Below are positions 14,994 to 25,487 of a stretch of DNA of 64,000 nt, piece after piece (position 1 is the stretch's first letter; every line of letters starts with the position of its first letter). Location: positions 1 through 64,000 of the forward strand of contig JAUVXE010000004.1 in NCBI GenBank assembly GCA_030603745.1, written 5' to 3'. The notes under the pieces are model-generated. The model did no database searches. It was not told the origin of the DNA and was given only the letters and a program-made list of their open reading frames with translations. The DNA is from Coriobacteriia bacterium (GTDB taxonomy: Bacteria > Actinomycetota > Coriobacteriia > Anaerosomatales > SLCP01). A program made the translations under genes and the position numbers.

Positions 14994-15971
14994 CTACGTC
15001 TCGAGCAGGCCGTCCACGCGGCCGTCCGCCGCGTCGGCCGCGGCACGCACCTCGGCGAGGATCTCGGTCGCGCCGAGTCCGCGAAGCGACTCGACCATCG
15101 CGTGGCCGAGAGCCTCGGGCTCGTCGGCGGCGCCGGTGAGGCGGTGCCTGACGATCCGCGTGCCGTCCACGCTGCCCACGAAGGCGTCCATGACCAGCTC
15201 GCCGCCCTCGAGACGCGCGTACGCGCCGATGGGCACCTGGCACCCGCCCTCGAGCGAGCGCATGACCACGCGCTCGGCGGTCACGCACGCGAAGGTCTCG
15301 GGGTGCGAGAGCTGCTCACACACGCCGGCCATGAACTCGTCGTCCTCGCGGATCTCCACGCCGATCGCACCCTGTCCCACGGCCGAGACCATCTGGTCGG
15401 TGCCGATGTAGTGGCTGATGCGCTCGGCCCATCCCATGCGGGTGATGCCGGCGCTGGCGAGGATGACCGCGTCGACCTCACCCTCCTCGGCCTTGCGCAT
15501 GCGGGTGTCGAGGTTGCCGCGCACGTCGACGATCTCGAGGTCGGGGCGGAGCGCCACGACCTGGCTGCGGCGGCGCAGGCTCGACGTGCCGAGCCTCGCG
15601 CCCTCGGGCAGGGTATCGAGGTCCCATCCGGCGTCCCCGCTGACGATGACGTCGCGCGGGTCGACGCGCTCGGGCGTGGCCGCGATGACGCAGCCCTCGG
15701 GGAGCTCCGTGGGAACGTCCTTCATCGAGTGGACGCACAGGTCGACCGTGCCGGCCATGAGCTCGACCTCGAGTTCCTTGGTGAAGAGCCCCTTGCCGCC
15801 CACCTTGGCGAGCGGGACGTCGAGGATCTTGTCGCCGGTGGTCTTGATGACCTTGAGCTCGACGGGCAGGCCGGTGATCTCGGCGACCCGCGCCTTGATG
15901 TACTCGCTCTGCCACAGGGCGAGCTTGCTCCCCCTCGTTCCGATGACCAGCTTCTGGCGGCTAGCAGCCAA
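14994..15971 (-). CDS. hemC: Hydroxymethylbilane synthase (porphobilinogen deaminase)
   Basis: HemC polymerises four porphobilinogens into hydroxymethylbilane on a dipyrromethane cofactor held by the cysteine in EGGCQVP (C244). Other markers are IGTRGSKLALWQ, KTTGD, HSMKDVP and LGTSSLRRRSQ. The 325-residue length is normal. The start is TTG, overlapping the hemA stop by 11 bases, with GGGAG upstream inside hemA, which indicates coupling to hemA translation. cobA-hemD begins 109 bases downstream. Confidence 0.96.
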   Translation of the reverse strand: MAASRQKLVIGTRGSKLALWQSEYIKARVAEITGLPVELKVIKTTGDKILDVPLAKVGGKGLFTKELEVELMAGTVDLCVHSMKDVPTELPEGCVIAATPERVDPRDVIVSGDAGWDLDTLPEGARLGTSSLRRRSQVVALRPDLEIVDVRGNLDTRMRKAEEGEVDAVILASAGITRMGWAERISHYIGTDQMVSAVGQGAIGVEIREDDEFMAGVCEQLSHPETFACVTAERVVMRSLEGGCQVPIGAYARLEGGELVMDAFVGSVDGTRIVRHRLTGAADEPEALGHAMVESLRGLGATEILAEVRAAADAADGRVDGLLET

Positions 15972-17349
15972 GGGTGTCTCCCATCTCGTTCTGAGCGCTC
16001 TTGTCGGCGGCCCGCCCGGCGGCTCGTTCGGCCTTGCCGAGGAGCGTCTTGATCAGGCCCTGGTGGGCGGGCTTGCCCTCCGGGTTGGTGTCGAGGCCGT
16101 AGAGGAAGCGGGCGGCCTCGATGTAGTCGTAACCGTCCTTCTCGCCCGCGACCATCTTGAGGCGGGCGGTGGGACCGTGAAGCATCTTGTTCACGATGGA
16201 GCTCGTGAGCGCCTCGACCGTCTTGAGCTCCTTCTCGGAGAGCCCGCCGAGCCGCTTGAGGGCCTTCTCGAGCTCGGCCATGCGCACCTGCTCGGCCTTG
16301 GCCCGGATCGCCGCGACCGTGGGCACGACCTCCATCGACTCGATCCAGCGCTCGAACGCGACCATCTCCTCGGCGATGATCTCCTCGGCGCGGCGCGCCT
16401 CGCGCATCCGCTCCTCGAGGTTGGACTCGACAACGCCGTTCAAGTCGTCGATGTCGTAGAGGAAGACGTCGTCGAGCTCGTTGACGTCCGGGTCGATGTC
16501 GCGCGGCACGGCGATATCGATGAGGAAGAGCGGGTTGCCTTTGCGCCCGCGCATGGTGGGCGCCACCTGCTCCTTGGTGATCACGTGGTGCGTGGCGGCG
16601 GTCGACGAGATCACGATGTCGGCCTCGCGCATCCGCTCGAAGAGCTCGTCGTAGCGGATCGCCTCGCCGCTGAAACGGCCGGCGAGCTCCTCGGCGCGCT
16701 CGTAGGTGCGATTCGCGACGAGCACGCTCTTCACGCCGTTGCACACGAGGTGCTTCGCGGTCAGCTCGCTCATCTTGCCCGCGCCGAGGATGAGGATCGT
16801 ACGGCCGTCGAGCGAGTCGAAGACCTTCTTGGCGAGTTCCACCGCCGCGTAGCTGATCGAGACCGCGTTCTCGCCGATGTCGGTCTCGGTCCGCACCCGC
16901 TTGCCCACCTCGAACGACTGGCGGAAGAGACGGTTGAACACGCGGCCCACGGACTCGGTGCCGAACGCGTGCTCGTAGGCCTCCTTCACCTGACCGAGGA
17001 TCTGGGCTTCGCCGATGACCATCGAGTCGAGGGAGGCGACCACCCGGAACAGGTGGCGCACGACCGCCTCGCCCTCGGAGAAGTAGAGGTAGCGCACGAG
17101 CTCATGCCGGTCGAGATCGTGGTAGTCCGCGAGGAAGTCTATGACCGCGGCCGAGCCGTCGGCCCCGGCGGCGGTGACCGCGTAGATCTCGGTGCGGTTG
17201 CAGGTAGAGAGGATGACCGCCTCGGCCACGTCGGGGGTCGCCATGAGAAGCGAGAGCGCCTCTTCCTGCCGATGGGCGGGGAAGGTGAGCTTCTCGCGTA
17301 TCTCGACCGGTGCGGTCTTGTGGCTCAGGCCGACGAGTGTCAGGTGCAT
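15961..17349 (-). CDS. hemA: Glutamyl-tRNA reductase
   Basis: HemA reduces glutamyl-tRNA(Glu) to glutamate-1-semialdehyde with NADPH, the committing and usually regulated step of tetrapyrrole synthesis. The 462-residue protein starts MHLTLVGLSHKTAPVEIREK, has the catalytic cysteine in STCNRTEIY (C50), an NADPH-binding ILGAGKMSELTAKHL segment and a C-terminal dimerisation helix region. The ribosome binding site is poor, with no purine run of note before ATG at 17349. A 177-base leader with extensive potential RNA structure precedes it, which fits post-transcriptional control. Confidence 0.96.
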   Translation of the reverse strand: MHLTLVGLSHKTAPVEIREKLTFPAHRQEEALSLLMATPDVAEAVILSTCNRTEIYAVTAAGADGSAAVIDFLADYHDLDRHELVRYLYFSEGEAVVRHLFRVVASLDSMVIGEAQILGQVKEAYEHAFGTESVGRVFNRLFRQSFEVGKRVRTETDIGENAVSISYAAVELAKKVFDSLDGRTILILGAGKMSELTAKHLVCNGVKSVLVANRTYERAEELAGRFSGEAIRYDELFERMREADIVISSTAATHHVITKEQVAPTMRGRKGNPLFLIDIAVPRDIDPDVNELDDVFLYDIDDLNGVVESNLEERMREARRAEEIIAEEMVAFERWIESMEVVPTVAAIRAKAEQVRMAELEKALKRLGGLSEKELKTVEALTSSIVNKMLHGPTARLKMVAGEKDGYDYIEAARFLYGLDTNPEGKPAHQGLIKTLLGKAERAAGRAADKSAQNEMGDTLGC

Positions 17350-17400: not shown

Positions 17401-17516
17401 GCACGGGTACGCCCTCGCCGGAGCGGTGCATGGTGTTCAGGCAAGCAGGCCCGGCGAGGGCGGTATCCGTGCAACACACGCTGTGACCACGCACCTTCTG
17501 CACACTGCCTGAACAG
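17401..17516 (-). promoter_or_regulatory. Structured leader of hemA (candidate cis-regulatory RNA)
   Basis: On the transcript strand, an 11-base helix (17461-17451 with 17421-17411) is extended across an internal loop by six more pairs (17472-17467 with 17406-17401). It closes a 29-base loop. Within that loop, bases 17443-17435 are perfectly complementary to 17514-17506, located upstream of the helix. The two helices interleave, so they form either a pseudoknot or two mutually exclusive folds. No B12-box or other riboswitch consensus I know is present. The structure is read by eye only. Confidence 0.55.
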
Positions 17517-17517
17517 T

Positions 17518-17525
17518 ACGATTCT
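17518..17525 (-). promoter_or_regulatory. Possible -10 box of a hemA promoter
   Basis: TAGAAT on the minus strand begins right after the stop of the preceding SDR gene and is followed by CGTAC and the motif TGTTCAGGCAG. The ccmE promoter has the same arrangement (TAGTAT, CGGCA, TGTTCAGGCAG). No good -35 lies at the expected distance inside the SDR gene, so this call rests on the -10 and on the shared layout. Confidence 0.4.
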
Positions 17526-17526
17526 A

Positions 17527-18339
17527 TCATCCTCGGCGCACCTTCGCCACGTCGCGGTCGACGATGCGGAAGAAGAGCTCAGGGAGCAGGCCCTTGAGGC
17601 GGAAGTAGAAGCGGCTCGTGGCGTCCGGGATGATGTGGAAGCGCCCGCGCTCCATGCCGCGCACCACCGCGTGCGCGACCCGGTCGGGCGCAATCGGCTT
17701 GATGTTGCCGGCCACGGCCTCGGTCTCGGGCGGCCGCATCCGCTTCTCGGCCGCGAGCGCCGGCGTGTCGGTGTCGGGCGGGAGCACCACGGAGACCGCG
17801 ACGCCGTGCGGCCGCATCTCGAAGCGGAGCGCTTCGCTGAAGCCGAGCACCGCGTACTTCGCCGCCGCGTACCCCGTGTACCCGTAGATGCCGAGGAATC
17901 CGGCGACCGAGGAGACGTTCACGATGTGGCCTCGGCCACGCTCGAGCATCCCCGGCACGACGGCCTTGCACGGGTTGACCACGCTCCAGTAGCCCGAGGT
18001 CATGTTCGCCTCGAGGTCGGCGAGGGGCATGGAGGCGAACTCGCCGGGCACGATCACCCCGGCGCTGTTGACGAGGATGTCGGGCGCGAACCCCTCGGCA
18101 GCGAGGGTCTCGAACGCGCACGTGGTCGCATCCGGGTCGCCGAGGTCGACGCTCGCAACGAGCACGCGCTGTGACGCGTCGCGCCTCACCGCCGAGACCG
18201 CCTCCTGGGCGATCTCGAGCCGGCCGGGGTCGCGGGCGATGAGCGCCACGTGGGCGCCGCGCGCGGCGAACTCCTTGGCGCACGCGAGCCCGATGCCGCT
18301 GCTGCCGCCGGTGACGACGGCGTGTGCTCCCGCGAACAC
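17527..18339 (-). CDS. Short-chain dehydrogenase resembling 3-ketodihydrosphingosine reductase
   Basis: This 270-residue NAD(P)H-dependent SDR has the cofactor motif TGGSSGIG (10-17), NSAG (91-94), and catalytic S144, Y157 and K161 (YAAAK). The segment LPPDTDTPALAAEKRMRPPET (about 186-206) closely follows the PPDTDTP...KPxET pattern of eukaryotic KDSR, so a long-chain 3-keto lipid is the likeliest substrate class. The GTG start lies one base after the sirC stop (TGA-C-GTG), so the two are probably coupled. Its place between sirC and hemA gives no direct clue, and a porphyrin-related role is possible but unsupported. Confidence 0.8.
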   Translation of the reverse strand: MFAGAHAVVTGGSSGIGLACAKEFAARGAHVALIARDPGRLEIAQEAVSAVRRDASQRVLVASVDLGDPDATTCAFETLAAEGFAPDILVNSAGVIVPGEFASMPLADLEANMTSGYWSVVNPCKAVVPGMLERGRGHIVNVSSVAGFLGIYGYTGYAAAKYAVLGFSEALRFEMRPHGVAVSVVLPPDTDTPALAAEKRMRPPETEAVAGNIKPIAPDRVAHAVVRGMERGRFHIIPDATSRFYFRLKGLLPELFFRIVDRDVAKVRRG

Positions 18340-18340
18340 G

Positions 18341-19048
18341 TCAGTCCCCGGCGCCGGCGTCCGCGGGCGGCGCCGCCTCGAGCACCGCGGTGGTCGCCGC
18401 GGCCGCCGCGAAGCGCCGGAAGACGTCCTCGGCGTCGGGACACTCGCCGGCCATGACGCGCTCGAACAGGTCCGACGCGGCGATGGCCTCGAAGATTGGC
18501 TTGCGCACCGGCTCGCCGCCGGGGACGCGCTCCAGCACGAGCCTCCTGATCCTGCCGAGGAGCGCGACGTAGCACTCCCACTCCTCGCCGTAGGCCGCCT
18601 CGAGCTCACGTCGGATGCGCTTGGCGACGACCGGGGCCGCCCCGCCCGTCGAGATGGCGATCTGCAGCGGGCCGCGCTTGACGATGGACGGCACGATGAA
18701 GTTGCACAGCTCCGGCACGTCCACCACGTTGACGAGGCACCCCTGCCCCTCGGCCTCCTGGTAGACGGCACGGTTGACCTCGGTGGAGTCGGTGGCGCAG
18801 ACCACCAGGAACGCTCCGGCGAGGTCCCCGCGGACGTATCCGCGCTCCTCGTGGGTGATGAGCCCCTGGGCCACGAGCGACTCCACGCCTGGCGTGACGA
18901 GCGGGGCGATGCAGTGGACGTCGGCACCGTACTCGAGCAGCGTCTCCATCTTGCGCTCCGCGACACTCCCCCCGCCCACGACCACGGCGAGCCGGCCGCG
19001 GAGGTCACAGAAGACGGGGTAGTAGGCGTAGGTGTACGGCTCAGTCAC
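18341..19048 (-). CDS. sirC: Precorrin-2 dehydrogenase (SirC / CysG N-terminal type)
   Basis: This enzyme oxidises precorrin-2 to sirohydrochlorin with NAD+ and, in some relatives (Met8p, CysG), also inserts iron to give siroheme. The 235-residue protein begins YYPVFCDLRGRLAVVVGGGSVAERK with a Rossmann fold. It then shows VCATDSTEVNRAV, VNVVDVPELCNFIVPSIVKRG and ISTGGAAPVVAKRIRRELE, all diagnostic of the family. The C-terminal helical part is present. The start is GTG with GAGG 7 bases upstream. No separate ferrochelatase (CbiX/SirB) is visible, so chelation may be done here or elsewhere. Confidence 0.93.
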   Translation of the reverse strand: MTEPYTYAYYPVFCDLRGRLAVVVGGGSVAERKMETLLEYGADVHCIAPLVTPGVESLVAQGLITHEERGYVRGDLAGAFLVVCATDSTEVNRAVYQEAEGQGCLVNVVDVPELCNFIVPSIVKRGPLQIAISTGGAAPVVAKRIRRELEAAYGEEWECYVALLGRIRRLVLERVPGGEPVRKPIFEAIAASDLFERVMAGECPDAEDVFRRFAAAAATTAVLEAAPPADAGAGD

Positions 19049-19057
19049 GGGCAGACC

Positions 19058-19900
19058 TCACAGTCCGAAGATATGGAAGCCGGTGGGGACGGTCCGCGCG
19101 ATCACCGCGAGCACGACCACGGCCACGAGGCCCACGAGGGCGATGCGGGCGAGCAGCTTGCCGGAGGCCCCGCTCTTGTAGTGCAGGAACAGGTAGCTGC
19201 CGAAGATCCCCCACACGACCCCCGAGAGCATGACGCGGGGATCGAACCACCATGCGGGCAGCCCGAACTCGATCGCCCGGATGATGCCGAGGAGCATGCC
19301 GGCGGTGTAGACCGGGTAGGCGAGCATGATCGCGCGGCGCGCGAGCTGCTGCGTCTGGGTGAGCGAGGGGAGCCGCTTCATGAGCGCCGAGGTCTTGTGC
19401 TTCTTGAGCTGCGCCCCCTGCACGAGGTAGACCGCCGAGGCGGCCGCGGCGACCGCGAAGCCGGCGTTGGCGGTCATGATCATCGCCACGTGGATCGCGA
19501 CCCGCCAGCTGTCGAGCTGCTCGAGCGCGTCGGCGGTGAGCTCGGCGCCGGTCGAGCCGAGCGAGATCTGGGCGATCGCCATCGCGACGAACGCGACGGG
19601 CACGAGCACCGTGCCGTAGAGCTTGAGCTTCACCAGGTGCTCGACCACGAAGTAGATGAGGATGAGCGCCCAGGCGGTCAGCGAGAGCGAGTTGAAGGCG
19701 CCGGTGATCGGCACCTCCTGCGTCGCCCCCCAGTGCAGGCCGATCGAGGCGGTGTGGGTCAGGAACCCGGCGCCCGTGGCGAACGTGGCGTACCACGCGA
19801 AGACGGGCCGCTTAGCGACGAAGTGGTAGACGTAGAGCACCGTCGCGACCATGTAGAGCGTCATGGCGAACCACAGGTTCACCAACGCCGCCTGTTCCAC
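19058..19900 (-). CDS. CcsA/HemX-family cytochrome c assembly membrane protein
   Basis: This 280-residue integral membrane protein has about eight hydrophobic segments of the cytochrome c assembly family (PF01578). Histidine-containing stretches (HTASIGLHWG, AIHVAMIMTANAGFA) and a GLPAWWFDPR segment stand where CcsA/CcmC proteins carry their tryptophan-rich haem-binding motif. It is the fourth gene after ccmC/ccmD-like and precedes sirC by 9 bases, bridging the cytochrome c and haem loci. It may handle haem for cytochrome c maturation, or act like the HemX proteins found next to hemA. The start is GTG after AAGGAGG. Confidence 0.8.
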   Translation of the reverse strand: MEQAALVNLWFAMTLYMVATVLYVYHFVAKRPVFAWYATFATGAGFLTHTASIGLHWGATQEVPITGAFNSLSLTAWALILIYFVVEHLVKLKLYGTVLVPVAFVAMAIAQISLGSTGAELTADALEQLDSWRVAIHVAMIMTANAGFAVAAAASAVYLVQGAQLKKHKTSALMKRLPSLTQTQQLARRAIMLAYPVYTAGMLLGIIRAIEFGLPAWWFDPRVMLSGVVWGIFGSYLFLHYKSGASGKLLARIALVGLVAVVVLAVIARTVPTGFHIFGL

Positions 19901-19960
19901 GTCCCGCCTCCTTCCCGCCTCAGGGCATCATCGACCGCTCGCCGGACACGTCGCGCGACG

Positions 19961-20146
19961 CTACTCGCCCGCGCGACGCTCCATGGACTCCTCGAGTACC
20001 TGCACCTCACGCTCGAGACGCATGAGTCGGCGGAAGACCATGCCCACGTACGCCATCAGCGCGACCCACAGGATACCGTAGGCGGCGAGCACGTAGGGCG
20101 CGTCGGTGATAGCGAGCCGGTAGAGCTCCTCGTTCGTCGGATCCAT
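19961..20146 (-). CDS. CcmD-like small membrane protein
   Basis: This 61-residue protein has one hydrophobic segment (about 17-37, YVLAAYGILWVALMAYVGMVF) followed by a basic and acidic helix RRLMRLEREVQVLEESMERR. Size, topology and the position directly after ccmC match CcmD, which in system I stabilises the CcmC-haem-CcmE complex and helps the CcmAB transporter release holo-CcmE. Sequence conservation in CcmD is low, so context carries the call. GAGG lies 10 bases before ATG. Confidence 0.75.
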   Translation of the reverse strand: MDPTNEELYRLAITDAPYVLAAYGILWVALMAYVGMVFRRLMRLEREVQVLEESMERRAGE

Positions 20147-20203
20147 CTCGACAGTACCTCCTCGGAAGCGTGGTGACCGTACCTCGGCGGGGCAAGGGCC
20201 CGA

Positions 20204-20953
20204 TCAGCCCTCGAGCGCCTCCTTCATGATCTCGACGCGCTCCTCGAGCCGCTCCTCGTTCATCCTGATCGAGTAGATGGCGTAGCCCACGAGCAGCATG
20301 CCGATCTGGCCGAGGATGAACGGGACGAGGTTCGAGGTCGCGAAACCCGACTGGAACACGACCGGGTGGTTCGACGGGATGAGCCGCGTGATGAAGAACG
20401 AGATCGGCGCGTTGATGAACGCGATGATGCCGAAGACCGAGGCGTAGACCGCGCGGCGCTCCTCGTCCTCGATGGAGTTCCGGAGCACGAAGTAGCCGAT
20501 CATCATGAGCGTCATGATGAAGTAGGTGGTCAGCCTCGGCTCCCACTCCCACCACACGCCCCACGCCGCCCGGGTCCAGAGGATGCCGGTGATCATCGTG
20601 AGCGTCACGAAGACGATCGCCGTCTCCATTGCGATGCGCGACTTGGTGTCGTACTCCTTGCGCTTGGTCATCAGGAACCTGATGGCGAAGAACGCCGCGA
20701 CACCGAAGACGAGGAACGACGCCTCGGCGACCGGCACGTGGAAGTAGAAGATCTTCTGGCTGAACCACGGCCGCTCATAGCGGTAGCCGTCGGCGGTGAC
20801 CTCCTGGAGCGGGAACGCGGTGTCGATGCGCTCGGAGAGCGTGACCGTCCCGAACCGCTGCACCTCCGCGGTGGTGAACGCCATGACGAAGGCGACCGTG
20901 GTCAACAGGCCACCGATCACCAGCATCACCAGCGCTACTCTCAGCTGTTTCAC
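20204..20953 (-). CDS. ccmC: CcmC, haem handling protein of cytochrome c maturation
   Basis: CcmC presents haem to CcmE on the outer face of the membrane. The 249-residue protein has six hydrophobic spans. FYFHVPVAEASF supplies the first conserved histidine region and WGVWWEWEPRLTTYF the tryptophan-rich motif. That motif reads WEWEPR where most CcmC have WxWDxR, a conservative change. I chose GTG at 20953 because AGGAGG lies 6 bases upstream. Codons further upstream would overlap ccmB and add a non-conserved stretch. Confidence 0.92.
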   Translation of the reverse strand: MKQLRVALVMLVIGGLLTTVAFVMAFTTAEVQRFGTVTLSERIDTAFPLQEVTADGYRYERPWFSQKIFYFHVPVAEASFLVFGVAAFFAIRFLMTKRKEYDTKSRIAMETAIVFVTLTMITGILWTRAAWGVWWEWEPRLTTYFIMTLMMIGYFVLRNSIEDEERRAVYASVFGIIAFINAPISFFITRLIPSNHPVVFQSGFATSNLVPFILGQIGMLLVGYAIYSIRMNEERLEERVEIMKEALEG

Positions 20954-20999
20954 GCCACGCCTCCTCGAAAGAGAGTCGACACCTGCCTCGGCTGACGCC

Positions 21000-21734
21000 C
21001 TAGGCGCCCAGCACGAACTCATAGAGCGCATACGCGGCGAGCACCATGATGGCGTCGTACGCCGCGATCAGTCCCATACCCGACCAGAACTGCTGCACAT
21101 GGCCGTCCCCGCCGAGCACGGCCGCGGTGGTCGCCGAGACGCACGCGAGCAGGAGCGGATACATCAACGGGATGAAGAGTACCGCAAGCACGAAGTCCTT
21201 GCCCTTCGTGTTCACCGACATCGTAGCGAGGAGCGTGCCCACCCCCGCGATGCCCACCGCCCCGCCGAGGAGGGCGACGGGGATCATCCACAGCTGGCCG
21301 CCGTACTCACTCCCCTGCAGGAACAGGAAGGCGAAGACGGGGATCGTGAGCACCTGCACGATGAGCAGGAAGATCATGTTGCCGATCGCCTTGGCGAAGA
21401 AGATCACCGGCCGGTCCACCGGCGAGAGCAGCAGCGCCTCAAGGCACCCCTGGTCCTTCTCGTGCACGAGCGAGCGGTTGAGCCCGAGCATGCTCGTGAA
21501 GACGAACGCGAGCCACAGGAGGCCCGCCGCGATGGTCCGCGGATCGAACGCCGTGCCCGCCTGGGAGAGCGCGATCTGGTAGACCACCATCGTGAGCAGC
21601 GCGTAGATGCCCATCGACGTGATCATCTCCTTGGTGCGCAGCTCCATGACGATGTCCTTGCGCAGGATCGCCCTGAACTGCCGCCAGGAGAGGCCGCGCC
21701 CGGGACGACGGGCGGTCGTCTCGGCCATGGTCAC
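21000..21734 (-). CDS. ccmB: CcmB, membrane subunit of the CcmAB ABC transporter
   Basis: This 244-residue permease with six hydrophobic spans belongs to the CcmB family. Markers are FRAILRKDIVMELRTKEM at the N-terminus, NRSLVHEKDQGCLEALLLSPVDR after the second span, and a C-terminal YEFVLGA end. With CcmA it uses ATP to release haem-loaded CcmE from CcmC. The ATG overlaps the ccmA stop by 4 bases (ATGA). ccmC starts 47 bases beyond the ccmB stop. Confidence 0.93.
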   Translation of the reverse strand: MTMAETTARRPGRGLSWRQFRAILRKDIVMELRTKEMITSMGIYALLTMVVYQIALSQAGTAFDPRTIAAGLLWLAFVFTSMLGLNRSLVHEKDQGCLEALLLSPVDRPVIFFAKAIGNMIFLLIVQVLTIPVFAFLFLQGSEYGGQLWMIPVALLGGAVGIAGVGTLLATMSVNTKGKDFVLAVLFIPLMYPLLLACVSATTAAVLGGDGHVQQFWSGMGLIAAYDAIMVLAAYALYEFVLGA

Positions 21735-22468
21735 GACACCCCCGTTCCGACGGTGGCGCGGTAGGTCGCCGTGAACTCGTCCTCGTCGATCTCGGCCTTG
21801 GGCGCGGAGAGCACGACCTTGCCGCGCGCGAGGATGAGCGCATGGGTGCAGAGCTCGAGGCCCTTGGCGAGGTCGTGGCTGATCATCACGAACGTGTGCT
21901 CCGAGCGGATCTGGGCCATGAGCGAGTCGAAGATCTCCACCGCGTGCGGGTCGAGGCCGGAGTACGGCTCGTCGAGGAAGAGCACGTCAGGACGGTGCAG
22001 GAGCGAGCGCGCGATCGAGAGCCGCTGGAGCATGCCGCGCGAGAAGGTGCGCACGAAGTCGAGCCGCCGATGGTCGAGCTCCACGGCGGTGAGCAGCTCG
22101 CGCACCCGGTCGGCGGCGTCGTCCACACCGTACATCTCGGCGAAGAAGCGCAGGTTCTCCTCGGCGGAGAGGTCGGGATAGAGCAGCGGGTTGTGGCTGA
22201 TCAGCCCGATGCGCTCGCGCAGCTCGACCGCGTCCTCGACCACGTCGAGGCCGAAGATGCGCGCCGAGCCTTTCGAAGGCGCCGTGAGCGTGGTCAGCAC
22301 CTTGACGAGCGTGGTCTTACCAGCGCCGTTTGGCCCGAAGATCGAGAGGAACGCGCCTTGGGGGAGATCGAAGCTGACCTTGTCGAGCGCCTTGCGCGCG
22401 CCGAAGGTCCGGGTGAGTCCCCGGACCTCCACTGCGAGCGCGTTCTCTGGTGCTGTCGGTTCCGACAT
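21731..22468 (-). CDS. ccmA: CcmA, ATPase of the haem/CcmE ABC transporter
   Basis: This 245-residue ABC ATPase has Walker A GPNGAGKTTL, Q-loop region ISHNPLLYPDLSAEENL, signature FSRGMLQRLSIARS and Walker B VLFLDEPYSGLD followed by the H-loop VMISHD. The family assignment comes mainly from the neighbouring ccmB, with which it overlaps by 4 bases. It powers CcmE release in cytochrome c maturation. It starts 16 bases after ccmF ends. Confidence 0.92.
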   Translation of the reverse strand: MSEPTAPENALAVEVRGLTRTFGARKALDKVSFDLPQGAFLSIFGPNGAGKTTLVKVLTTLTAPSKGSARIFGLDVVEDAVELRERIGLISHNPLLYPDLSAEENLRFFAEMYGVDDAADRVRELLTAVELDHRRLDFVRTFSRGMLQRLSIARSLLHRPDVLFLDEPYSGLDPHAVEIFDSLMAQIRSEHTFVMISHDLAKGLELCTHALILARGKVVLSAPKAEIDEDEFTATYRATVGTGVS

Positions 22469-22484
22469 CAGCGTCCCTGGCCGC

Positions 22485-24530
22485 CTAAGAGACCGGCTCA
22501 GGACGCCTGCGCGGCCACATCGCGATGGCGCTACCCACCGAGAGCAGGCCGAAGCCGAACCACACCCAGCTGATGAGCGGGTTGATCTTGACGTTCATCT
22601 GGATGTTGCCGGCCTGGTCGAGCCCCTCGAAGACCACGAAGATGTCGCGGAGGAACTCGACGATGACGCTCACGTCGAGACGGGTCTGGTCCTGGCGGAA
22701 GTACCTGATCTGACCCGGCGTGGCTATGCCGGTCTGGCGCCCGTCGCGATAGACCTCGAAGATGAGCTCGGAGATCTGGTCGCCGTTGTCGAGCGTCTGG
22801 TCCTGGAAGCCCTGGAAGACGAACTCGTAGCCGCCGACCTCGAACTCGGCGCCCGGCTGGTTGGGGATGGAGAGTCGCGCGTCCTTCACGAACATCGACG
22901 AGCCGACCAGCCCGATGATGATGATCCCCATGCCGAGGTGGGCCATGAAGCCGCCCGACTGCGTGCGGGCCTTGAAGATGATCGAGCCGAGCGCGGAGAG
23001 GACGTTCTCGCCCTTGGCCGCGGCGCGCTTGCGGGCGCCGTTCACGAACAGGGAGATCGCCACCGCGATCGTGAGGGACCCGATGGCGAACCCGGCCATC
23101 GCCTCGTAGGTGAAGATCGAGGTCGCTGGGTTGGCGCCGGGGTTGTGGAACAGGTAGTGCGGCCACATCGCGTTCCACCACACGATCGCGAGCGCGACGA
23201 AGAGGAGTGCGGCGGCCACGAGCGGGTAGCGGACCTTCTGCATGAACTGGGCGCCCTCGGTCTTGCGCCACACGAGCAGCGGACAGACCGCGAGGATGAA
23301 CATGTACAGGATGCCCACCGGCCGCGCGATCGCGTCGTAGGTCGTGGGACCGTAGGTCTTGCCGCCGAGCGCCGGCGAGAGCGTGAGCGCGGCGATGACG
23401 ATGGCAGCGACAAGCATGAGCACGTTGTTGAAGTAGTACGCCGCTTCTTTCGAGGTGAGACTCTCGAACTCGTCCGCCCCCCGGAAGGAGTCGCCGCGCA
23501 CGATGACCCCGATCGTGGCCGAGGCCATCACGCCCACCATCATGCCGAGGAACCACCAGAACGAGAGGTTGTCCGGGGCGAAGGCGTGGACCGACTGCAC
23601 GATGCCGGAGCGCACGATGAACGTGCCGAGGATGACGAAGGTGAAGGTCACCGCCGACATCATGATCGACCACTTCTTGAACCCGCCGCGACGCTTGTAG
23701 ACCGTGAACGAGTGCAGCAGGCCGACACCGGTCAGCCAGGGCAGCAGCGAGGCGTTCTCGACCGGGTCCCACGCCCAGTAGCCGCCCCAGCCGAGGACCA
23801 CGTACGCCCAGACCGCGCCGAGCCCGTTACCGAGGCCGAGGAAGAGCCATGCGAAGACGGTGATGCGGTCGACGATGTCGACCCACAGCTTCGAGGAGTC
23901 GTTGATGATCAGCGCGCCGATCGCGAAGGCGAACGGCACCGCGAGGCCCGCGTAGCCCACGAAGAGCGTCGGCGGGTGGAGCATCATGGCCCAGTGCTCG
24001 AGCAGCGGGTTCATGCCGCCACGGATGAGGAGTTCGCCGCCGGGGCCGACCCACGAGGCCGGCGAGAGCTTGAACGGGTTGTTGAGCGGGATGAACAGCG
24101 CGGTCAGGAAGGTGAACTGCACCACGTTGAGCACCGCGAGCGAGACGTTGGAGAGCGGATCGGTGATCGACATCCGGCGATACGCGATCCACGCGGCGAA
24201 GATCGAGAGCAGCCACGCCCAGAAGAGCAGCGAGCCCTCCCGGCCTGCCCAGACCGCCGCGATCCGGAAGAACAGCGACAGCGACGAGACGTCGGTCGAG
24301 TGGTGCTGCGCGACGTACTCGAGGGAGAAGTCCTCCCGCAGGAACGCCGCGGTCAGCAGCGCGATCGCGGCCGAGGCGCCGATGAACACACCGAACGTCG
24401 CCAGGTATCCCAGGTTGGTGAGGCTCTCACCTCGCTTCTGTCCGAGCCTGTGGCCCCATACGAGGGCTCCCACCGACAGGAGCGTCGCCACGAGGGCGAG
24501 GCCCATGAACAGGTTGCCGAGGTTGGCCAT
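22485..24530 (-). CDS. ccmF: CcmF, haem ligation subunit (holocytochrome c synthetase)
   Basis: CcmF takes haem from CcmE and attaches it to CxxCH apocytochromes. The 681-residue protein shows about 13-15 hydrophobic spans and the WWD motif region GWGGYWAWDPVENASLLPWL, flanked by conserved histidines (HPPTLFVGYAG and the HSFTVYKRRGG region). A C-terminal outer loop precedes the last span. The length is near the normal 640-680. GGGAG lies 9 bases before ATG. The partner CcmH/CcmI/CcmG genes are not in the window. Confidence 0.95.
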   Translation of the reverse strand: MANLGNLFMGLALVATLLSVGALVWGHRLGQKRGESLTNLGYLATFGVFIGASAAIALLTAAFLREDFSLEYVAQHHSTDVSSLSLFFRIAAVWAGREGSLLFWAWLLSIFAAWIAYRRMSITDPLSNVSLAVLNVVQFTFLTALFIPLNNPFKLSPASWVGPGGELLIRGGMNPLLEHWAMMLHPPTLFVGYAGLAVPFAFAIGALIINDSSKLWVDIVDRITVFAWLFLGLGNGLGAVWAYVVLGWGGYWAWDPVENASLLPWLTGVGLLHSFTVYKRRGGFKKWSIMMSAVTFTFVILGTFIVRSGIVQSVHAFAPDNLSFWWFLGMMVGVMASATIGVIVRGDSFRGADEFESLTSKEAAYYFNNVLMLVAAIVIAALTLSPALGGKTYGPTTYDAIARPVGILYMFILAVCPLLVWRKTEGAQFMQKVRYPLVAAALLFVALAIVWWNAMWPHYLFHNPGANPATSIFTYEAMAGFAIGSLTIAVAISLFVNGARKRAAAKGENVLSALGSIIFKARTQSGGFMAHLGMGIIIIGLVGSSMFVKDARLSIPNQPGAEFEVGGYEFVFQGFQDQTLDNGDQISELIFEVYRDGRQTGIATPGQIRYFRQDQTRLDVSVIVEFLRDIFVVFEGLDQAGNIQMNVKINPLISWVWFGFGLLSVGSAIAMWPRRRPEPVS

Positions 24531-24656: not shown

Positions 24657-25334
24657 CTACTGCTCGGTATCCGACATCGAGACGCTCGATGCCTCGAAGA
24701 CGCCCTCGGCATCGATCATCCCGCCGAGAACCACCTGAGAACCGTCGGTCATGCCGTCGGGCAGCGCGCCGGTGTAGAAGATGTCGACCGTGGGCTGACC
24801 GCTGCGGTCGGCGACCGTGAAGCGCACCTCGCCGCCGGGCGGCTGGATGCTGCCGTCGACCACGAACCCGGTCAGACGAACGGGCAGGCCGACGATGTCA
24901 TCGGCCTTGTCCTTGAGGTCGATGACGGTGAGCGCGCCGTCGGCGGACTCGTACTTGGACGGACACTCGGTCATCATGCTGTCCGACTCGAAGACGCCGT
25001 CAGCGTTGATGGCGCCGGTCAGGATCGCGGTCACCTCGTCACCGAAGGTGCTCGGGACGTTACCGTTGTAGACGATCCGCAGCGCGGGGCCGCTCTTCTG
25101 GTCCCGGTCGCGGATCTCGAACCGCATCGGACTCGCGTTGCCGTCCCACGAGCCCGGGACGACCATCCCGCTCACCTTGACGCGCTCGCCCTGGAACTCG
25201 GGGTTCTCAAGGAGTTCGCCCACCTCGCGGGTGTAGGCGCCGTCGCTCGCTCCGACGGAGAGGAAGATCGCTGTCACCGAGATCACGATGATCGCGGTCA
25301 CGCCGATGAGCCGCATCTTGGCCCGCTTGTTCAC
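24657..25334 (-). CDS. ccmE: CcmE haem chaperone with two OB-type domains, CXXXY variant
   Basis: CcmE is a membrane-anchored haem chaperone. This 225-residue form has an N-terminal anchor (about 9-29) and a first OB-like domain ending CPSKYE. There C124 takes the place of the usual haem-binding histidine and Y128 is kept (the CXXXY class known from Desulfovibrio and archaea). A second, similar domain (about 131-225) repeats VxLTGFVVDGSI, VxFTVAD and VVLGGMIDAEGVFEAS but ends without any C/HxxxY motif. Normal CcmE is about 150 residues. I chose GTG at 25334 because AAGGAG precedes it. It is the first gene of the ccm operon. Confidence 0.9.
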   Translation of the reverse strand: MNKRAKMRLIGVTAIIVISVTAIFLSVGASDGAYTREVGELLENPEFQGERVKVSGMVVPGSWDGNASPMRFEIRDRDQKSGPALRIVYNGNVPSTFGDEVTAILTGAINADGVFESDSMMTECPSKYESADGALTVIDLKDKADDIVGLPVRLTGFVVDGSIQPPGGEVRFTVADRSGQPTVDIFYTGALPDGMTDGSQVVLGGMIDAEGVFEASSVSMSDTEQ

Positions 25335-25457
25335 GTCACCCACTCCTTTGTAGGGACCGCGCCCAGGGCGCCGGCACCACGAGCCACCGAGCACACTACT
25401 GCCCGTGACGGGGTGCGGGAGGTCACCGCTTGAACGCCTGCCTGCCTGAACATGCCG

Positions 25458-25487
25458 ATACTACCACCGGAAGGGCCTGAGCGACAA
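25458..25487 (-). promoter_or_regulatory. Promoter of the ccmE operon
   Basis: TTGTCG (25487-25482) and TAGTAT (25463-25458) are separated by 18 bases on the minus strand, a plausible vegetative promoter. Transcription would begin near 25451, inside the motif TGTTCAGGCA, leaving a leader of about 115 bases before the GTG start. It lies in the gap between the conserved gene ending at 25546 and ccmE. Confidence 0.6.

Follow-up and report, generated by a model that had tools for sequence, protein, structure and literature searches.

A hemA leader RNA with a loop complementary to the predicted 5' ends of the hemA and ccmE mRNAs: a candidate link between heme supply and cytochrome assembly

The leader of hemA in the window analysed here, a stretch of 64,000 nucleotides from a Coriobacteriia bacterium of the order Anaerosomatales, is quite likely a base-pairing regulatory RNA. 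It contains a conserved hairpin with loop bases complementary to the 5' tips of two predicted mRNAs, that of hemA itself and that of ccmE, the first gene of a cytochrome c maturation cluster. hemA is the entry point of tetrapyrrole synthesis and the first committed gene of heme synthesis, and the element is probably an undescribed regulatory RNA linking heme supply to cytochrome assembly. Comparison across genomes shows the complementarity, the covariation of three helices, the position of the sites relative to the -10 box, and the co-occurrence and co-loss of the two modules involved (M1 and M2, below). The element would be a covariation-supported RNA family with members in several families and in no fewer than two classes of Actinomycetota, a phylum where few conserved base-pairing RNAs are known, and RNA pairing at mRNA 5' tips would tie hemA to cytochrome c maturation. 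Rfam 15 gave no match at gathering cut-off at the window leader or at loci of four other families, a permissive Rfam scan of the window returned chance-level scores only, and the open-access full-text literature searched yielded no account of the element.

All features of the leader lie on the minus strand. The -10 hexamer of the hemA transcript (TAGAAT, 17521-17526) is followed after 6 nt by the 5' strand of helix a, GTTCAGGC (17507-17514; 17514-17506 if one further A is included), at the predicted +1; the +1 positions of hemA and ccmE are both predictions, read from -10 boxes. Downstream are GCAG (17498-17501), which can pair with CTGC inside the hairpin loop (17445-17448) and so extend helix a, and the 5' strand of helix c, GGTGCGTGGT (17486-17495). 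The module GTTCAGGC..GCAG..GGTGCG is designated M1. The hairpin, M2, consists of stem strands b, CGCCCTCGCCGG (17451-17462), and b', CCGGCGAGGGCG (17410-17421), closing the loop CTGCTTGCCTGAACAACACGCACC. In addition to CTGC this loop carries a', GCCTGAAC (17435-17442), which is complementary to the hemA and ccmE mRNA 5' ends, and c', ACCATGCACC (17425-17434), the partner of helix c, which is 10 bp long in the window genome. Formed in cis, helices a, b and c each cross the others. hemA (glutamyl-tRNA reductase; PF05201, PF01488, PF00745) occupies 15961-17349. An earlier note on this DNA had described a, b, a' and b', with a' lying within the b/b' loop, and the sequence confirms this arrangement; helix c, the GCAG/CTGC lengthening of a and a second a-like site at 25451-25438 are additions. 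Six further pairs that it had proposed outside b/b' do form in the window's own fold, but they are missing from the consensus fold of 29 relatives and are thus not part of the conserved structure.

The folding energy of the window leader alone is mildly unusual (z -2.27, 1 of 200 shuffles as good). It is not this value but conservation that rules out a chance fold: a covariance-model search of the order found the element (helices a, b and c) in 65 of 69 genomes, ahead of hemA and as a single copy in each. A TANNNT box lies 6-7 nt before the hemA-side site in 61 of 65 loci at which such a site was located. Three of the four genomes without the element also lack a detectable hemA. The fourth, G022, has hemA. 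Among 41 close genomes HemA was detected in 39, and all 30 hemA loci that were fetched carry the leader element. In an alignment of 29 sequences, 97.7% of the cells in a, b and c pair, a share that falls to 36-46% if the partner columns are shifted by 1-3. All cells of stem b (348/348) are paired, three of its pairs having changes on both sides. Helix c shows compensatory variants in several lineages (GATGCG/CGCATC, AGTGCA/TGCACT). Helix a is almost invariant within the order and nearly so within the class. In family f46, assigned to another class on the strength of its kinship label 'same phylum', the a/a' combinations are GTTTAGGC/GCCTAAAC (five genomes), GTTTAGGC/GTCTAAAC (one) and GTTTAGAC/GTCTAAAC (three); the first and last of these alleles show compensation at two positions. 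The f46 genomes were found with a model (R2) in which a/a' pairing is not encoded, and this compensation was therefore not built in. Such natural alleles amount to precise, naturally tested base swaps. The earlier note had suggested looking among relatives for covariation or loss of pairing; pairing is kept and covariation is present, and its claim of an interleaved, structured regulatory RNA of no known family before hemA is supported by the covariation of the three helices. Most of the genomes compared are metagenome assemblies.

Elsewhere in the class, families f17, f20 and f21 give weaker but clear model matches, and 73 of 398 class genomes contain the loop pattern, at roughly one occurrence each. 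A few other matches were set aside. The loop-pattern matches in G043 and G231 look like chance, with no hairpin there, the weak model matches in f22 genomes are coding and have only 21 positions aligned, and a match in Pseudomonas fluorescens (L277) was dismissed as chance, there being no matching stem around it.

The second site was reached through f20 and f21, which keep the loop without helix a in cis. A search for the loop's complement gave GTTCAGGYAAG after a -10 box, and this was located at the ccmE transcript start in two f20 genomes and then in the window. Here the -10 hexamer of the ccmE operon (TAGTAT, 25458-25463, minus strand) is followed after six bases by GTTCAGGCAGGCAG (25438-25451, minus) at the predicted +1, and these 14 bases, with which the predicted ccmE transcript begins, are complementary to CTGC-TT-GCCTGAAC of the loop. 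A little further on, AGCGGTG (25424-25430, minus) can pair with CACCGCT of the loop, which would form helix c in trans. ccmE itself (24657-25334, minus; PF03100) has a GTG start. The genes between the two sites (17527-24530) are all on the minus strand; ccmF (24530-22485) and a short-chain dehydrogenase (SDR) ending at 17527 were recognised by Pfam. By gene order and known families, the others are taken to be ccmA (22468-21731), ccmB (21734-21000), ccmC (21031-20204), a ccsA-like gene (19900-19058) and a sirC-like gene (19048-18341). The row ccmE-ccmF-ccmA-ccmB-ccmC-ccsA-sirC-SDR runs toward hemA, with 8 kb between the upstream ccmE site and the hairpin.

Of the 398 class genomes, 217 have an identified CcmE, and ccmE leaders were fetched for nearly all hairpin-bearing genomes and a chosen sample of others. 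Sixty-nine hairpin genomes have ccmE sequence. The site is present in 67; in the other two the contig stops 13-17 nt upstream of the match. GTTCAGGY stands 6-8 nt after a -10 box in all 67 readable leaders. For genomes in which no hairpin was detected, 22 leaders were examined: 19 have no site, and the three with one come from assemblies missing hemA or its upstream region. Site and hairpin are associated (Fisher p 1.6e-14, in a test that ignores shared ancestry), and a TANNNT box lies 6-8 nt upstream of 70 of 70 ccmE sites; most bases of M1 are fixed in the pattern used to locate it. G022 and genus g45 of f20, both with hemA and no hairpin, also have no ccmE site; judged by these leaders, this is co-loss of M1 and M2.

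The two partners also vary together. The loop variant ACCTGAAC (G044, G070) is matched by GTTCAGGT at ccmE, nine other genomes have a T-G pair at that position, and none has a C-A mismatch. The c' strand fits the ccmE leader of its own genome better than permuted leaders (0 of 2000 as good; 58 order genomes, kinship ignored), and the reversed-leader control gave 412 of 2000. On the hemA side, helix a fits its own partner no better than permuted partners (633 of 2000). In a pattern scan of 10 order genomes, with context read for most matches, the only matches near a clear -10 were in the hemA and ccmE leaders, at 6-7 nt; the single exception is a weak TACGCT case in G019. Mean duplex energies for the a segment are -25.6 kcal/mol with ccmE and -21.8 kcal/mol with hemA's own 5' end, for segments that differ in length and with topology ignored. 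The stronger predicted ccmE duplex would suit competition with the hemA 5' end.

The location of the two modules varies among lineages. Within the order, M2 occupies the hemA leader together with an M1 of its own, which in G080 is only partial. In f20, M2 precedes hemA with no M1 there. No HemA was found in f21, where M2 follows ccmD and is succeeded by an intrinsic terminator, and M1 is at the ccmE start, 32-37 nt before the start codon. In both f20 and f21, M1 is 5-8 kb upstream of M2. In most genomes some 115 nt separate M1 from the ccmE start codon, a distance at which simple ribosome blocking does not fit. In f46, M1 and M2 share one leader before a cytochrome-assembly-like gene and ccm genes; no second M1 was seen before another gene, so this unit may act in cis only. 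In f87 (L378) both modules precede hemA and the stem ends in TTTTTTT. In f74 and f93, M2 is an intergenic hairpin ended by a T-run, apparently a separate unit, with weak candidate promoters below the scan threshold; in one f74 locus (L379) the M1 of hemA is 2.2 kb downstream of M2. The T-runs of f74, f87 and f93 were read by eye, since the terminator tool misses a hairpin with so large a loop.

M1-like sequences are more numerous in some of these families. Three f74/f93 genomes contain 17 further M1-like 12-mers besides the hairpin, against one for the reversed pattern. Those in short leaders (L410, L415, L416, L422, L401, L414) precede genes for a thioredoxin-like protein (in two families), an FtrD-like protein and a cupredoxin lipoprotein, as well as genes for exported proteins. 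It is possible that they form a wider regulon where the hairpin stands alone. Additional M1-like 12-mers in f20 and f21 fall partly in coding sequence and partly in 5' leaders.

The proposed mechanism is as follows. The M2 loop would pair in cis with the M1 of hemA, giving the interleaved a/c/b fold, and with the M1 of ccmE either in trans or across 8 kb of one long transcript; we infer that the M2 and ccmE RNAs meet in vivo. Pairing would seal the mRNA 5' ends and change their decay. RNase J is encoded in 7 of 7 genomes tested and Hfq was not found in these 7, and protection of the paired mRNAs from RNase J is plausible. Among the possible outcomes, stabilisation by 5'-end pairing is suggested tentatively, with somewhat less than even confidence. 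In lineages with M1 beside the Shine-Dalgarno sequence, translation might be affected instead. The ccmE mRNA may compete with hemA's own 5' end for the loop, which would couple heme supply to cytochrome c maturation. A more specific and rather doubtful version makes the ccmE 5' end the 'ligand' of the hemA leader: through its stronger predicted pairing it would displace the hemA 5' end, so that the level of ccm message would set heme synthesis. The same doubtful version holds that the pairing module was kept while the hairpin moved among leaders, a 3' UTR and an apparent stand-alone RNA gene.

The earlier note had proposed the leader as a candidate riboswitch or attenuator. As an intramolecular attenuator, M2 would be a terminator in the hemA leader (sometimes Rho- or U-tract-dependent), read-through into hemA would depend on whether the M2 loop pairs with the nascent 5' end (M1), and the ccmE site would be a second input or a by-product. 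The crossing of b by helix a agrees with this, as do f46, where M1 and M2 together form a cis leader of the ccm operon, and f87, with both modules before hemA and a T-run after the stem, a run also seen in f74 and f93. However, most Anaerosomatales leaders have no T-run after the stem, no U-run directly follows the hairpin in the window, and a scan covering loops of 3-8 nt found no terminator-like site there. The distances between M1 and M2 in f21, f20 and f74 also count against it, and this explanation is unlikely. A riboswitch, with heme, siroheme or another tetrapyrrole bound by the a/b/c fold, is less probable again. A strongly conserved, pseudoknot-capable leader before the first committed heme-synthesis gene is what might be expected of one, and f46 has a cis-only form, but pairing with M1 largely accounts for the conserved loop bases, leaving mainly AACA unpaired. 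Moreover, the modules also occur singly, M1 before ccmE and M2 in f21 and f74, and no Rfam aptamer scores. An attenuator-like use is possible in f87. The complementarity of the loop to a second mRNA, the retention of the hairpin without detectable hemA in f21 and the apparently separate hairpin 2.2 kb from hemA in f74 do not favour a haem-responsive riboswitch or attenuator.

The sites could also be DNA operators, a transcription factor binding GTTCAGGCAAGCAGG at the +1 of hemA and ccmE and at a third, inverted copy in the hemA leader. Both sites do lie at +1, a usual place for repressor operators. However, the a' copy always lies antisense in a loop closed by a covarying transcribed stem, and in f20 and f21 it is also remote from promoters; compensatory changes preserve its complementarity to a, the copies are not phased in their spacing, and c covaries in trans, all of which makes an operator very improbable. 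A T-box-like sensing of tRNA-Glu was rejected, the longest pairing being 4-7 nt (6-8 with G-U), compared with 6.8-7.5 in shuffles.

A base-pairing RNA of the kind favoured here has partial parallels elsewhere. RoxS of Bacillus subtilis pairs with the extreme 5' end of yflS mRNA, blocks RNase J1 and activates expression (PMC5419742). The likeness is in the complementarity to the first bases of the target, here at the predicted +1 in 67 of 67 readable ccmE leaders; the RNA and targets differ, and in most genomes the RNA described here lies within the leader of one of its targets. OppZ and CarZ of Vibrio cholerae are autoregulatory sRNAs derived from 3' UTRs, which inhibit translation after RNase E processing (PMC7398697). 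The f21 hairpin is similar: its place is the 3' end of the ccm operon, with a terminator after it, and it is complementary to the 5' leader of that same operon, close to the Shine-Dalgarno sequence; only f21 has this arrangement, whereas the window hairpin is in a 5' leader, and Hfq was not found in the genomes tested. Vsr217, encoded in the malK 5' UTR (PMC8265627), is likewise a leader doubling as a regulator of other mRNAs, although its targets are in sugar metabolism and not heme; the likeness concerns arrangement. IsrR (PMC12607789) and Shewanella RyhB (PMC5826389) are iron- or redox-linked sRNAs acting on heme or cytochrome genes, and share post-transcriptional base-pairing control of such genes; they belong to other phyla, RyhB is in Rfam, which has no match here, and the hemA leader element is not known to be connected with iron or Fur.

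Several of the leaders have other small features. The hemA leaders of f20 genus g45 without the hairpin (L122, L123 and L124, with oriented hemA starts at 1399, 1501 and 1501) include, in L122, a short terminator-like hairpin and T-run just before a good Shine-Dalgarno sequence, AAGCCCTTTCGGGCTTTATTTTTGGAGG; the corresponding sequence in L123 and L124 is similar and less regular. The G022 hemA leader (L118/L113), which has apparently lost the whole element, shows a -10-like box and then a short leader with GGCGAGGCGAGCG before hemA. Elsewhere in f20 another hairpin of varying stem (GTCAT..GCAAAG / CTTTGCATGAC) lies directly before M2 (about 1787 in L062 and about 2067 in L065, and also in L066 and L068), and in f20 ccmE leaders M1 is followed by a small GGG..CCC hairpin. 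Several f12 ccmE leaders (e.g. L233, L243) carry a GCGCGC..GCGCGC hairpin just before the Shine-Dalgarno sequence. In G129 a candidate second small hairpin with the loop CCTGCTTACCTGAACA (L080, 1978-2010, plus strand) lies next to an opposite-strand gene that seems to encode a cupredoxin domain, at its apparent 3' end.
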